Position numbers and translations under genes: made by a program. 64,000 nt of DNA from Halodesulfovibrio aestuarii DSM 17919 = ATCC 29578. Lineage in GTDB: Bacteria > Desulfobacterota > Desulfovibrionia > Desulfovibrionales > Desulfovibrionaceae. The stretch covers positions 372,001-436,000 of the forward strand of contig NZ_ARQF01000020.1 of the NCBI RefSeq assembly GCF_000384815.1. Reading direction: 5' to 3'. Of this stretch, positions 37,673-58,973 are shown in pieces; position 1 is the stretch's first letter; each line of letters begins with the position of its first letter. The notes under the pieces are model-generated. The model saw only the letters and a program-made list of their open reading frames with translations. It was not told the DNA's origin and did not search any database.

Positions 37673-37725
37673 AACCTCGCAAGAACGCCATTGCCATGTG
37701 CTTGCAGGGTGCGTATTGTGCGCCT

Positions 37726-39321
37726 ATGCCTACATCCGCTTCCACCCAATCTTCCCGCCATATTCATGTCCGTCCTTCACAGAAGGACGAAACTGACGTG
37801 CGTAGTTTTTTTGACAATGCCGTTGAAGGTATGTTTCGAAAAGCTCGTAATGGCCGTTTTATTCTAGTCAATCCTGCTCTGGCTAAAATTTTTGGATACG
37901 CATCTCCCGGAGAAATGCTCCGCAACTTTCCTATTGATCAAGACAAAGTTACCCTTGATGCCAGTCGATTTTTAGATCTGCTGACAGAACTCAAAAGCAA
38001 GGGCGAAGTTAAAAATTTTGAGATGCAGTTCCGCAGGCGGGACGGACTCCTTATGTGGGTACTCATCAATGCCCGCACGGTGTACACAGTAAAAGGTTCC
38101 ATAAAATTCTACGAAGGCACCCTTGTAGACATCACCGAACGAAAAGACTCTGAAACAGAACAGGCGATTATTGATGAGCAGATTCGTCAGTCGCAACGCA
38201 TGGAAGCCATCGGCATTCTTGCTGGCGGTATTGCCTCCGACTTCAGCACCCTGATCCGGCCTATTGTCAGCAGTACAGAATCTGCACTCAAGCAAAGCTC
38301 CGGCAACGAACAGGTTCAAAGCAATCTGAACACTATCCTTGGTGCTGCGAACAGTGCCATGGCTCTCATCAAGCAATTTCAGACTATCAGCAGACAAGGT
38401 CTGGGTGAAATGCGCCCAACCACCTTGCAACCCGTTCTTGCAGAGGCAGTAGGGGATTTTCAATCCTCTCTTCCGGAACACATTCAGCTTCTGGAAGAGA
38501 TTAGTGCTAATAACCGGACTGTGTTAGCTGACGTTGGACAAGTTCGACAAGTTATCGATAACCTACTAGAAAATGCAAGGCAGTCCATTGACGGTAGTGG
38601 AAAAATCACCGTACGCATGGCAGAAGTCGAATTTGATGAGCGCACAGGAGCATTCCGCGCAGATCTTATTCCCGGAAAATATCTCCGAATAACGATTCAG
38701 GATTCAGGCGTAGGGATTCCAGAACAGTTTCTTCCCCGCATTTTTGATCCATTTTTTACCACTCGTGATTCAGAAGACGCCCAAGGTCTTGGACTTGCTG
38801 TTGCCCATGGCATCGCCCGTGCCCACGACGGAGGAATTACAGTCCTGTCAGAAGAAGGACTTGGCTCTACTTTCTGCTTTTACATTCCGTTCTATGAACA
38901 GGAGATTGACCAGTCACAGCCAATTGCCCCTTCTCCAAGGCTTGGTAGTGAACGTATTTTGCTTGTATCCCCTGAAGAACAGGAAATCCGGAAGTGGCGC
39001 AGCCTGCTTGTTCCTCTCGGCTATCGTGTAGAAGCAGTTTCCGGCAGTGTTGAAGCATTACGGTTGTTTCTTGAATCACCGGATTCGTTCGACCTGATAG
39101 TTTCAACATTTGCTATGCCGCAAATGAACGGTCTGGAGTTTGCCAGAATCCTTCTCGGGGTTCATCCAACAACCCGTCTCGTTCTCTATGCTGATCCAAC
39201 AGACCCGATTACAAGCGAAATTGCCCTTGGTGCGGGTGTTCCTACCCTCGCGTATAAGCCCCTCGACACCAACAGTATTTTCAAGCTGGTGCAGTCTGCA
39301 CTCGAAGACCATCAGGAGTAG
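37726..39321 (+). CDS. Hybrid histidine-kinase-like protein without phospho-acceptor His or Asp
   Basis: About 531 aa, no membrane segment. PAS domain (~15-130), a dimerisation helix reading GGIASDFSTLI where family members have GGIAHDFNN, so the H-box His is Ser171; an apparently intact HATPase domain (N box DNLLENARQS, DSGVGIP, FFTTR, GLGLAVAHG); then a receiver-like domain in which the acceptor Asp is Thr461 (IVSTFAMPQMNG) and the acidic pair is SP (LLVSPEEQ). It can probably bind ATP but not carry out normal phosphotransfer. Overlaps functionally with the regulator gene 3 bp downstream. Start uncertain (alternative ATG 37696). Confidence 0.85.
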   Translation: MPTSASTQSSRHIHVRPSQKDETDVRSFFDNAVEGMFRKARNGRFILVNPALAKIFGYASPGEMLRNFPIDQDKVTLDASRFLDLLTELKSKGEVKNFEMQFRRRDGLLMWVLINARTVYTVKGSIKFYEGTLVDITERKDSETEQAIIDEQIRQSQRMEAIGILAGGIASDFSTLIRPIVSSTESALKQSSGNEQVQSNLNTILGAANSAMALIKQFQTISRQGLGEMRPTTLQPVLAEAVGDFQSSLPEHIQLLEEISANNRTVLADVGQVRQVIDNLLENARQSIDGSGKITVRMAEVEFDERTGAFRADLIPGKYLRITIQDSGVGIPEQFLPRIFDPFFTTRDSEDAQGLGLAVAHGIARAHDGGITVLSEEGLGSTFCFYIPFYEQEIDQSQPIAPSPRLGSERILLVSPEEQEIRKWRSLLVPLGYRVEAVSGSVEALRLFLESPDSFDLIVSTFAMPQMNGLEFARILLGVHPTTRLVLYADPTDPITSEIALGAGVPTLAYKPLDTNSIFKLVQSALEDHQE

Positions 39322-39324
39322 GCG

Positions 39325-41016
39325 ATGGCTCGCGTTCTCATTATCGATAACGACCCTGTTTTTTCTGAAACTCTGGCTTCAATTGTTACCGGCCTCGGAC
39401 ACCGCAGCAAACAGGTAAAATCACTTAGAGAAGCTTTTATATCCGGTCGCAAGCATTACACGGACATTGTATACCTCAATACACAGCTTCCGGATGGAAG
39501 TGGTCTGCTGGCAATTGCACAACTTAATGCCATGCGTGGACACCCTGAGATTATTGTTATGACCGGAACCCCGACACCGGACGGTGCTGAGAAAGCTATC
39601 CGGAACGGTGCATGGGATTACGTCGAAAAGCAAAGTTCCGTTGACCGTTTAGTACTTCCGCTTATTCGCGCTATCGACTACAGGGGCAAGCGCCCGACTA
39701 AAAACGGAGCTGTTAAGCTTAAACGCAGCGGCATTATCGGTGACAGTGCCGGTATCAAAAAATGTCTGGCTCTCGTGGCTGAAGCTGCTTCTTCTGACGC
39801 CTCAGCGCTGCTGCTCGGTGAAACCGGTGTAGGTAAAGAAGTCTTCGCCCGTGCTGTACACGAAAACAGCCTTCGAGCTACCGGCCCGTTTGTGGCTGTT
39901 GACTGTGCATCCATGTCACGCACGCTTGCCAGCTCCATCCTCTTCGGTCACCAAAAAGGTGCCTTCACCGGAGCAGATAAAGATCGGGAAGGCCTTGTCG
40001 CACAGGCAAACAACGGAACCCTCTTCCTCGATGAGGTGGGCGAACTCCCCCTTGCTATGCAGAAAATTTTTCTGCGAGTTTTACAGGAGCACAAATTCCG
40101 CCCTGTTGGTGCGAGAACTGAAAAAATATCGGACTTCCGTCTCATCTGCGCCACCAACAGAAGCCTTGATGAAATGGTTGCACGCGGTACATTCCGCAGT
40201 GACCTGCTGTTCCGAATCCGTACCGTTGTAATGGCATTGCCCCCCCTACGAGAAAGAGCCGATGACCTCCCACGGCTTATTGAGCACTATGTTAAACAAC
40301 TGTGCGGAAAATATGGTATGCCGGCCAAAGGGATTTCGCCAGATCTGCTTGACCTTGCTAAAGAGTATTCGTGGCCGGGAAACGTGCGCGAATTGATTCA
40401 TACTCTGGAACGCGCGGTGTTGGCAGCAAAAGATACTTCCAAGATTTTCAGCCGGCATTTACCAGATCATATACGTATTAATATTGCCCGGGCGGCTGCG
40501 GACAAAACACAGCGTGAAGAAAAGCAAGTCTCCGAGCATAACGGGGCATTCTGCGCGTTATCTGAAGCTGAAAACAACACTGAAAACTACACAGCACAAC
40601 TTGCCACCTCACCTGTAGAACAAGAATCACCGCGTCATCTGCCTCCGCAGTTTGCGATTACCACACCTGCGCCCATGGTCGTGCCCCGGCAAAACAGTGA
40701 CGGTCGTTTTACAAGCAACGTACAATGGGCAGAGGACATCCCACCAACATCTATATCGTCACAGTTTGGCACAGGCTATCAATCTGAAAATTCCGTGATC
40801 TCGGACAAAGAGTCGACAAATTCCGCGATCGAGGACGTTCAAATCTCTGCGACATCTATTAAGCCATTTTTTGAATTCAGAGACGAAGCTTTCTCACAAT
40901 ATCTTCAGAATCTTATGGCATTATCTGAGGGAAAAGTAGCAACAGCCTGCAAATTATCAGGCCTTTCCCGTTCCTATTTATACGACCTGTTAAAAAAGCA
41001 CTCAGTCAAAAAATAG
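39325..41016 (+). CDS. Sigma-54 response-regulator-like activator with Asn at the phospho-site
   Basis: 563 aa. Receiver domain (~1-120) keeps the fold, the TG threonine and YVEK lysine, but the phospho-acceptor Asp is Asn52 (VYLNTQLPDGSG). AAA+ domain (~133-375) is complete: GETGVGKE, intact GAFTGA, GTLFLDEVGE. A ~120-residue hydrophilic, low-complexity linker (~390-510) separates it from a C-terminal Fis-type HTH (VATACKLSGLSRSYLYDLLKK). Starts 3 bp after the kinase-like gene with GGAG. Directly downstream is a sigma-54 promoter with tandem repeats that it may bind. Confidence 0.92.
   Translation: MARVLIIDNDPVFSETLASIVTGLGHRSKQVKSLREAFISGRKHYTDIVYLNTQLPDGSGLLAIAQLNAMRGHPEIIVMTGTPTPDGAEKAIRNGAWDYVEKQSSVDRLVLPLIRAIDYRGKRPTKNGAVKLKRSGIIGDSAGIKKCLALVAEAASSDASALLLGETGVGKEVFARAVHENSLRATGPFVAVDCASMSRTLASSILFGHQKGAFTGADKDREGLVAQANNGTLFLDEVGELPLAMQKIFLRVLQEHKFRPVGARTEKISDFRLICATNRSLDEMVARGTFRSDLLFRIRTVVMALPPLRERADDLPRLIEHYVKQLCGKYGMPAKGISPDLLDLAKEYSWPGNVRELIHTLERAVLAAKDTSKIFSRHLPDHIRINIARAAADKTQREEKQVSEHNGAFCALSEAENNTENYTAQLATSPVEQESPRHLPPQFAITTPAPMVVPRQNSDGRFTSNVQWAEDIPPTSISSQFGTGYQSENSVISDKESTNSAIEDVQISATSIKPFFEFRDEAFSQYLQNLMALSEGKVATACKLSGLSRSYLYDLLKKHSVKK
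40792..40837 (+). repeat. Two copies of the TCCG-N6-CGGACA motif inside the activator gene
   Basis: TCCGTGATCTCGGACA at 40792-40807 and TCCGCGATCGAGGACG at 40822-40837, 30 bp apart, within the linker-coding part of the activator gene and ~360-400 bp upstream of the sigma-54 promoter. Confidence 0.5.
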
Positions 41017-41066: not shown

Positions 41067-41103
41067 TCCGCTATTCAGGACATCTTATCCGCTATCACGG
41101 ACA
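41067..41103 (+). promoter_or_regulatory. Tandem upstream activator sites for the sigma-54 promoter
   Basis: TCCGCTATTCAGGACA at 41067-41082 and TCCGCTATCACGGACA at 41088-41103. The repeats are 21 bp apart, two helical turns, centred about 100 and 125 bp before the -24 element, the usual enhancer distance. Each is an imperfect inverted repeat. An AT-rich tract separates them from the promoter. Confidence 0.7.
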
Positions 41104-41197: not shown

Positions 41198-41212
41198 TGG
41201 CACATTTCTTGG
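41198..41212 (+). promoter_or_regulatory. Sigma-54 (-24/-12) promoter
   Basis: TGGCAC-ATTTC-TTGG, matching the consensus TGGCAC-N5-TTGC at all but one base, with the two key dinucleotides 12 bp apart. Predicted transcription start near 41224. Confidence 0.8.
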
Positions 41213-41223
41213 TATAGAGTCAG

Positions 41224-41387
41224 CAGTGCAGGAGAAATGGTCTGCTCCTGAAAAGAAATTTCCCCGAGTGTCGGACAAAGTTAGGGGAAGCTACTTTTTT
41301 TCGTACCGGCGAAAACTACCCGGTTTCCTTGATCGCTTAGTCGATTGAAAAATACGCGCTGCAGCTTGCTGTAGCGCGATTTTTTTT
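41224..41387 (+). ncRNA. Candidate sigma-54-dependent small RNA, about 163 nt
   Basis: Runs from the predicted start of the sigma-54 promoter to a strong intrinsic terminator, with no substantial open frame. Predicted hairpins: CAGGAG/CTCCTG (41229-41250), TTCCCC/GGGGAA (41260-41289, loop of 18 nt containing another CGGACA copy), ACCGG/CCGGT (41305-41324), and the terminator CGCGCTGCAG/CTGTAGCGCG with CTTG loop (41355-41378) then eight T. The layout, activator gene then sigma-54 promoter then terminated RNA, resembles Qrr, GlmY or CrcZ small RNAs, without evident sequence similarity. A leader of the downstream gene is less likely because of the terminator and 137-bp gap. Confidence 0.7.
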
Positions 41388-42618: not shown

Positions 42619-42646
42619 TTGACCACTCAATTTTATTACGTATATT
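42619..42646 (+). promoter_or_regulatory. Promoter of the cobalamin operon
   Basis: TTGACC, 16-bp spacer, TATATT; predicted start about 42653 falls at the riboswitch 5' end. Confidence 0.6.
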
Positions 42647-42654
42647 GTACCACA

Positions 42655-42812
42655 CTTCAGGTGCTCAATGAGCCTAATAGGGAATCCCGTTAAAATCGGG
42701 AGCGGTCCCGCCGCCGTAAGTTTTATTCAATTTTTCTTCATATTATACCACTGGGTTTACCGGGAAGGTCGGAGAAAAAGAAACAAGCCGGAAGACCTGC
42801 CTGAGACTTTGT
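42655..42812 (+). ncRNA. Cobalamin riboswitch
   Basis: Recognisable conserved blocks in order: ATAGGGAATCCCG, TCGGGAGCGGTCCCGCCGCC, CCACTGGG, CGGGAAGG and the B12 box AAGCCGGAAGACCTGCC. Lies 180 bp upstream of cbiK. Adenosylcobalamin binding should lower expression of the chelatase-transporter operon, either at a hairpin (CAGTGC/GCACTG, ~42930-42948) or at the ribosome site. Confidence 0.93.
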
Positions 42813-42991
42813 GGATATTCACACCACGTCTACCTTCGAATGCCTATCACCCTTCTTTTCGGCAGACTGTGAATATCAGGCACGTTTTGCAAGCACGGGG
42901 CCTTGTTCTGCAAAATACACTTCGCTATCAGTGCGTGCTATGCACTGCCAATGCGTCATACTCCCCGCCCCAAACGTTGGAGGCTTTTGCC

Positions 42992-58828: not shown

Positions 58829-58973
58829 CACTGTGCTAAAAAGTCACACTGTGCTAAAAGCACACAGTTAGCCGAGGTAGCCTCAGTATAAAAAAACTAT
58901 TAATTCCAATATAATAAATACAAAAACACCTCTGGCACATTCTTTGCTTATACCATGTTGGAGGGAACTTTTA

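Follow-up and report, generated by a model that had tools for sequence, protein, structure and literature searches.

The stretch of DNA analysed here, called the window below, comprises 64,000 nucleotides of the Halodesulfovibrio aestuarii genome, and the elements of the locus under study are all read on its plus strand. A PAS histidine kinase with a C-terminal receiver (37696..39321; Pfam PAS, HATPase_c and Response_reg) is followed by an NtrC-type sigma-54 response regulator (39325..41016) that combines a receiver with an AAA+ domain (Pfam Response_reg and Sigma54_activat) and in which a GAFTGA motif was read in the sequence. The kinase is the probable cognate partner of this regulator, which it adjoins in 9/9 Halodesulfovibrio contexts examined (tblastn, E<=1e-20); at the same threshold it was found beside the regulator in none of six contexts from g43, the second genus bearing the locus. 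In these six contexts (L104-L109), a peptidase U32 gene adjoins the regulator in place of the histidine kinase. Orthologues of the regulator itself were recovered from 10/10 Halodesulfovibrio genomes and, at the threshold used, from six of the eight g43 genomes. A sigma-54 promoter, TGGCACATTTCTTGGT (41198..41213), begins 182 nt past the last base of the regulator gene, and a small RNA (sRNA) of about 163 nt would be expected to start near 41224. Its hairpin P1 (41229..41250) carries GGUC in the loop (41239-41242) and its hairpin P2 (41260..41289) carries GGACAAAGUU (41273-41282); both hairpins show covariation, and their loops, compared with the dsrAB leader, are the proposed pairing elements 1 and 2. 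They are followed by the region of hairpins P3 and P4 (41305..41346), placed from the fold by eye and strongly variable among lineages, and by an intrinsic terminator (41355..41387). The locus is present in a single copy in its own genome.

An earlier note on this DNA had read 41198-41387 as a sigma-54-dependent sRNA gene directly after its probable activator, and this reading is supported by 18/18 genomes of two genera, which share the position of the promoter, the palindromes, the terminator and the covarying hairpins (covariation counted on nine of them). The promoter, described there as near-perfect, fits TGGCAC-N5-TTGSW with 0 mismatches, a pattern in which the last core base may be either G or C. 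At up to two mismatches the same pattern matches 60 times in the window against 67 expected by chance, so that the promoter on its own is weak evidence. One other exact sigma-54-like match occurs in the window, TGGCACATTCTTTGCT at 58933-58948. The structured character of the RNA was borne out by a fold that beats its shuffles (z -2.36, with 2/200 shuffles equal or better), and the terminator scan recovered the announced GC-rich stem (10 pairs, 7 of them GC, at 41355-41378), followed by an A and eight T. The segment also holds, as claimed, no real reading frame: the best-placed start, ATG 41238 behind AGGAG, yields only MVCS and is missing in divergent lineages (by eye), and a peptide gene was rejected for want of a conserved frame. 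No known sigma-54 sRNA had been recognised there, and the Rfam covariance models likewise gave no match at the gathering score, with weak matches (E 5.3 or worse) to other families. The RNA is presumably transcribed, and the neighbouring regulator presumably activates it, judging from this arrangement.

The tandem motif copies noticed upstream of the promoter, after the activator gene, are enhancer palindromes, TCCGNNATNNCGGA, which a motif scan placed at 41067-41080 (one mismatch) and 41088-41101, i.e., 21 bp apart and at -131 and -110 from the promoter start. The intergenic pair recurs in 6/6 near relatives with a spacing of 21-22 bp, 108-131 bp upstream of the promoter. Three copies 32-34 bp apart are found in 7/8 g43 genomes, the eighth having an N gap, and in the four divergent genomes the palindromes are fewer, displaced or mismatched, except in G004. 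Their position beside the regulator gene is suggestive of a dependence on RpoN and an enhancer-binding protein. The exact 15-mer occurs three times in G000, twice at the sRNA locus, and elsewhere the exact palindrome was seen at one place each in G000, G007, and G009, all inside long open frames. Since scanning of these three genomes shows it almost confined to the sRNA locus, the two-component system may have a single output, and it looks dedicated to the sRNA. A further palindrome pair lies within the regulator coding sequence (40792-40805, exact, and 40822-40835, one mismatch), its copies standing 30 bp apart. It is kept in near relatives, where both copies are present at no more than one mismatch in 5/6 genomes (own included) and at least one copy in 6/6.

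The sRNA follows the C-terminus of the regulator in each of the 18 genomes examined, ten of Halodesulfovibrio and eight of g43. A plain DNA search detected the element in 6/59 genomes, own included and all of the same genus; strongly diverged versions were found in G004, G005, and G006 by reading downstream of the regulator orthologue. The earlier note had also suggested a covariance search of relatives. The model used here, R2, covers the P1-P2 module without the promoter and was built from six sequences; it recovers 10/10 Halodesulfovibrio genomes (E 1.1e-10 or better), including four that did not contribute to the model. At E<=0.1, R2 matched 53/288 family genomes, that is, the ten of the genus and 43 others with E from 4.0e-5 (best, G156) to 0.1; these 43, together with a second weak match in G006 (E 2.3e-4), are taken as chance. 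Among the 17 fetched R2 loci (L063-L079), of which L064 and L065 were read, GGACAAAG occurs only in L063 (G003, real) and L075. R2 misses the g43 RNAs, and its silence elsewhere is thus no proof of absence. In g43 the same promoter stands downstream of regulator orthologues, together with an RNA that has diverged further. A pattern joining the promoter to the P2 loop, run on 348 genomes of the order, matched the locus in 7/10 genomes of the own genus and 8/8 of g43; it strayed to two places, a second one in G005 and one in G268, and its control columns were zero among the rows listed. For the promoter, at a start-site distance ahead of the RNA, the strict pattern matched in 15/18 genomes and a tolerant one in 18/18, the three genomes missed by the former having slightly different promoters. 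Downstream of the regulator homologues of G033, G292, G085, and G062 (51-52% identical), reading revealed no such RNA.

Covariation was counted on nine own-genus sequences over 12 named pairs of P1 and P2, the structure having been drawn from the same sequences, and the hairpins, whose conservation in relatives the earlier note had expected, do covary. Standard pairs fill 88.9% of cells vs. 78.9% in shuffles and 44-51% in slid versions of the structure. Eight of the 12 pairs change on both sides, while shuffles average 3.2 (0/500 reach 8) and slid versions give at most five. Another measure points in the opposite direction, with nine further pair types against 11.6 in shuffles, i.e., fewer. 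The loop motifs GGUC in P1 and GGACAA in P2 are invariant in 18/18 genomes, both having also served as anchors for reading the loops. Predicted unpaired probabilities are 0.52-0.98 for P1 loops and 0.36-0.80 for P2 loops, and opening a 9-nt segment in the g43 P2 loop would cost 7.6-7.9 kcal/mol. A kissing interaction between P1 and P2 within the sRNA, amounting to merely three or four pairs by eye, was dropped. In the divergent genomes G003 (L114), G004 (L047), and G005 (L046), the P2 loop motif reappears in the P4 loop as UGGACAAG (by eye).

To find a target, three genomes were searched for ACTTTGTCC, the word complementary to the P2 loop; it occurs at 28, 32, and 36 places, sRNA included, and its reversed control is about two to three times commoner. 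Apart from the sRNAs, every place was screened with a script, and those that proved conserved were read. The own genome has 27 copies outside the sRNA, three of which are conserved, with aligned surroundings, in both G007 and G009. Two of these conserved clusters are antisense to longer open frames, and only the third, at dsrA, falls within a leader in sense orientation; the identity of dsrA was confirmed by TIGR02064 above cut-off. The 260 nt upstream of dsrA were then compared in 30 genomes, 18 sRNA-positive and 12 relatives without detected sRNA, the latter hand-picked before their leaders were seen and all lacking the promoter-P2 pattern (one of them, G024, has a weak R2 match at E 0.075). 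ACTTTGTCC is present in this region in 18/18 sRNA-positive genomes vs. 0/12 of the others, in which the shorter words CTTTGTCC and TTGTCC appear in one (G018) and three genomes, respectively. As the sRNA-positive genomes are related, shared descent may explain part of this co-occurrence. In 18/18 leaders the word begins 35-36 nt after the start of TTGACA, a spacing that would place this first site at or next to the expected dsrAB mRNA start, as judged from the promoter-like box. The P2 loop (GGACAA...) is complementary to ACUUUGUCC, with which the dsrAB mRNA presumably begins. The conserved leader block (L253-L270) runs on into AAAAAATCACG, which does not vary among the 18 sRNA-positive genomes and is unexplained by the sRNA. 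A pairing of the terminator tail with AAAAAATCACG, seen by eye, is not conserved in divergent lineages and was dropped. The word GGACAAAGT, of the same sense as the sRNA loop, was also noticed in three genomes, where it abuts the start codon of a gene (MSQDFL...) on its upstream side, in L195 near 1000 on the reverse strand and also in L170 and L239.

The second site is a GACC complementary to the GGUC of the P1 loop, which in the 18 leaders lies 31-37 nt after site 1 and 107-116 nt before the dsrA start codon; each leader contains one to four GACC, and the copy chosen falls within leader positions 25-70 and follows an A or a C. Three positions, one on either side of GGUC and one at the end of the P2 pairing, vary on both partners (n = 18 for each). 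At P1 -1, the pair is U:A in six genomes and C:G in ten, with a C:A mismatch in two; at P1 +4, it is U:A in ten and G:C in seven, with an A:C mismatch in one; at P2 +9, it is U:A in six and A:U in four, with a mismatch in the eight g43 genomes, where the P2 pairing extends on the other side instead. The mean energies of the P1-site 2 duplex are -9.6, -14.1, and -13.0 for cognate lineages and -7.3 to -9.7 for swapped ones, the cognate duplex being best in each row and column, with a preference below 1.2 kcal/mol for the near relatives. For P2, swapped lineages pair almost as well as cognate ones. These compensating changes fall in three lineages only, for which a lineage permutation cannot beat 1 in 6. 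In the own genome, the two-site score is equalled by 26/5079 overlapping window segments and 5/2000 shuffled leaders, and P2 alone by 63/5079 overlapping window segments; this single-genome score being modest, the case rests on conservation and compensation. Conserved complementarity to the dsrAB leader with compensating changes, the mismatches above being the exceptions, points to a trans-acting base-pairing sRNA.

An Hfq gene was found with the Pfam model in 0/6 genomes, 5/14 control genomes being positive. We consider it likely that an Hfq-free trans-acting sRNA, produced from the sigma-54 promoter upon activation of the neighbouring two-component system, pairs with the dsrAB leader. The active system would fire the promoter, and the P2 loop of the resulting sRNA, GGACAA(A/G)G, would pair with CUUUGUCC, which stands at the very start of the dsrAB mRNA or immediately beside it, while the GGUC of the P1 loop would pair with the GACC located 31-37 nt farther downstream; the order and polarity of both contacts would suit one antiparallel complex. 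That the RNAs pair in cells, and the sign of the effect, are inferred from the sequences. We lean, by a small margin of belief, towards pairing that activates or stabilises the dsrAB mRNA, by one or both of two routes: the 5' end of the mRNA could be masked from decay, and a leader structure that ties this end to early codons or to the Shine-Dalgarno region could be loosened.

Folding of the leaders bears on the second route. Site 2 sits in a predicted hairpin loop in 10/10 Halodesulfovibrio and 0/8 g43 leaders, and its mean unpaired probability is 0.85-1.0 for the seven Halodesulfovibrio leaders that were folded, as against 0.36-0.67 for three from g43. When coding sequence is left out, about 0.7 of the Shine-Dalgarno positions are paired with the 5' end in three near relatives, and less elsewhere; this share drops to 0.04-0.11 with 30 nt of coding sequence and is 0.08-0.26 with 60 nt. 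When site 1 is blocked in silico, the unpaired probability of the Shine-Dalgarno sequence shifts by -0.06 to +0.04 in the ten Halodesulfovibrio genomes, and the g43 genomes show a change of 0 to +0.12, so that these models lend weak support to its release by site 1 pairing. In two of the three folded g43 leaders the Shine-Dalgarno sequence is predicted to pair with the surroundings of site 2 (0.31-1.0), and an sRNA contact there could therefore matter. The same pairing could instead lower DsrAB, be it through recruitment of a double-strand RNase, through stabilisation of a closed leader or in some other way, a reading that overlaps with our preferred one, whose sign is left open, and to which we give a real but clearly smaller chance than to activation. 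The sequence does not fix the direction of the effect, and blocking site 1 left the ribosome-binding site closed in Halodesulfovibrio; against repression, both sites are off the ribosome-binding site, at a distance of about 107-161 nt upstream of the start codon.

A genuine sigma-54 sRNA might also act on another target, the match to dsrAB arising from chance and shared ancestry and the 5' block being kept for promoter function or protein binding. We hold this to be unlikely, even if the single-genome pairing score is merely in the best 0.5% of segments, the conserved block of the dsrAB mRNA reaches beyond the pairing, the sRNA-positive genomes are related to each other and P2 has little cognate preference. 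Such a coincidence would have to produce compensating changes at three positions together with the cognate preference of P1, the distribution of ACTTTGTCC (18/18 vs. 0/12), and two sites in the right order, the second in a predicted hairpin loop in 10/18 leaders. Still less probable is a sponge for CsrA, whose binding site would be the GGA of the P2 loop. CsrA was indeed found in the 6/6 genomes in which Hfq was not, and GGA belongs to the P2 loop motif in 18/18 genomes and to a second loop in some diverged RNAs (by eye); yet, whereas CsrA sponges are rich in loop-borne GGA motifs, the own RNA has three GGA vs. 2.5 expected from its composition, one of them in a loop (by eye), and both the P1 loop and the dsrAB match would be left unexplained. 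That there is no sRNA at all, and that the segment either serves the downstream Gate-domain gene as its leader or encodes a short peptide, is very improbable, since, although near relatives have the next gene downstream on the same strand, the terminator is strong, the next gene is on the opposite strand in the divergent species and g43, and no frame is conserved (by eye).

Sulfate respiration has dissimilatory sulfite reductase as its central enzyme and, if the preferred reading of a base-pairing sRNA acting on the dsrAB leader is true, would come under post-transcriptional control at this key step. In its full form, in which the sole output of the two-component system would be one sRNA setting DsrAB synthesis without Hfq, through a two-loop complex at the dsrAB 5' end that co-evolves with its target in two genera, we regard this reading as evenly balanced between true and false. 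Should the pairing be real, the sRNA and the two-component system, both of them orphans, would gain a function together, in bacteria where Hfq was not found (6 genomes), and this function would be testable by a few base changes in a genetically tractable sulfate reducer.

The Qrr sRNAs under LuxO likewise combine an NtrC-type response regulator, a sigma-54 promoter and a base-pairing output, and Qrr and CrcZ act with Hfq. The window sRNA differs from Qrr, GlmY-GlmZ, and CrcZ by the absence of an Rfam match, from Qrr and CrcZ by the lack of a detected Hfq (6 genomes), and from Qrr by its single copy in the own genome. OxyS and fhlA form a two-loop kissing complex, and FasX pairs at the extreme 5' end of the ska mRNA without Hfq; the regulators and targets of OxyS and FasX are unrelated to those of the window sRNA. 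Among the titles and abstract openings listed for sRNAs in sulfate reducers or for dissimilatory sulfite reductase, a set with subscription journals mostly outside it, no sRNA is named as acting on dsrAB.

The existence of the sRNA is probably not new, and it is the dsrAB leader as its proposed target that is new. An "ncRNA downstream of DVU0653" is listed in passages of Kazakov 2015 (PMC4641369) as the target of the sigma-54 regulator DVU0653 of D. vulgaris Hildenborough, within a sigma-54 regulome that includes four ncRNAs, and passages of Rajeev 2011 (PMC3333781) mention a successful DAP-chip for DVU0653 and a missing annotation downstream. Like the RNA of the window, this ncRNA is placed by these passages directly downstream of a GAFTGA sigma-54 two-component response regulator; it was assigned from DAP-chip and motif analysis, and DVU0653 orthologues are described as restricted to few Desulfovibrio species (PMC4641369, PMC3333781). 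The likeness is one of position and regulator motif, the passages giving no sequence, structure or target. A separate sRNA downstream of DVU0679, Dv_sRNA2, also resembles that of the window in lying downstream of a sigma-54 response regulator; according to passages of the same paper, it is bound by that regulator and is expressed. Unlike the window regulator, DVU0679 has GAYTGS instead of GAFTGA and probably belongs to a different system (PMC3333781). Since the regulator of the window has GAFTGA, not GAYTGS, its system is probably that of DVU0653, and the window sRNA would be the same as the ncRNA downstream of DVU0653. The gene numbers of the neighbours presumably fit this identification. Across the 14 genomes asked, the D. 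vulgaris CbiK sequence matches at no more than 68%, most closely in g43, and Hildenborough was not found among them. In the window, a cobalamin riboswitch (Rfam RF00174, 100.2 bits) lies at 42642-42818, upstream of the cobaltochelatase cbiK gene.
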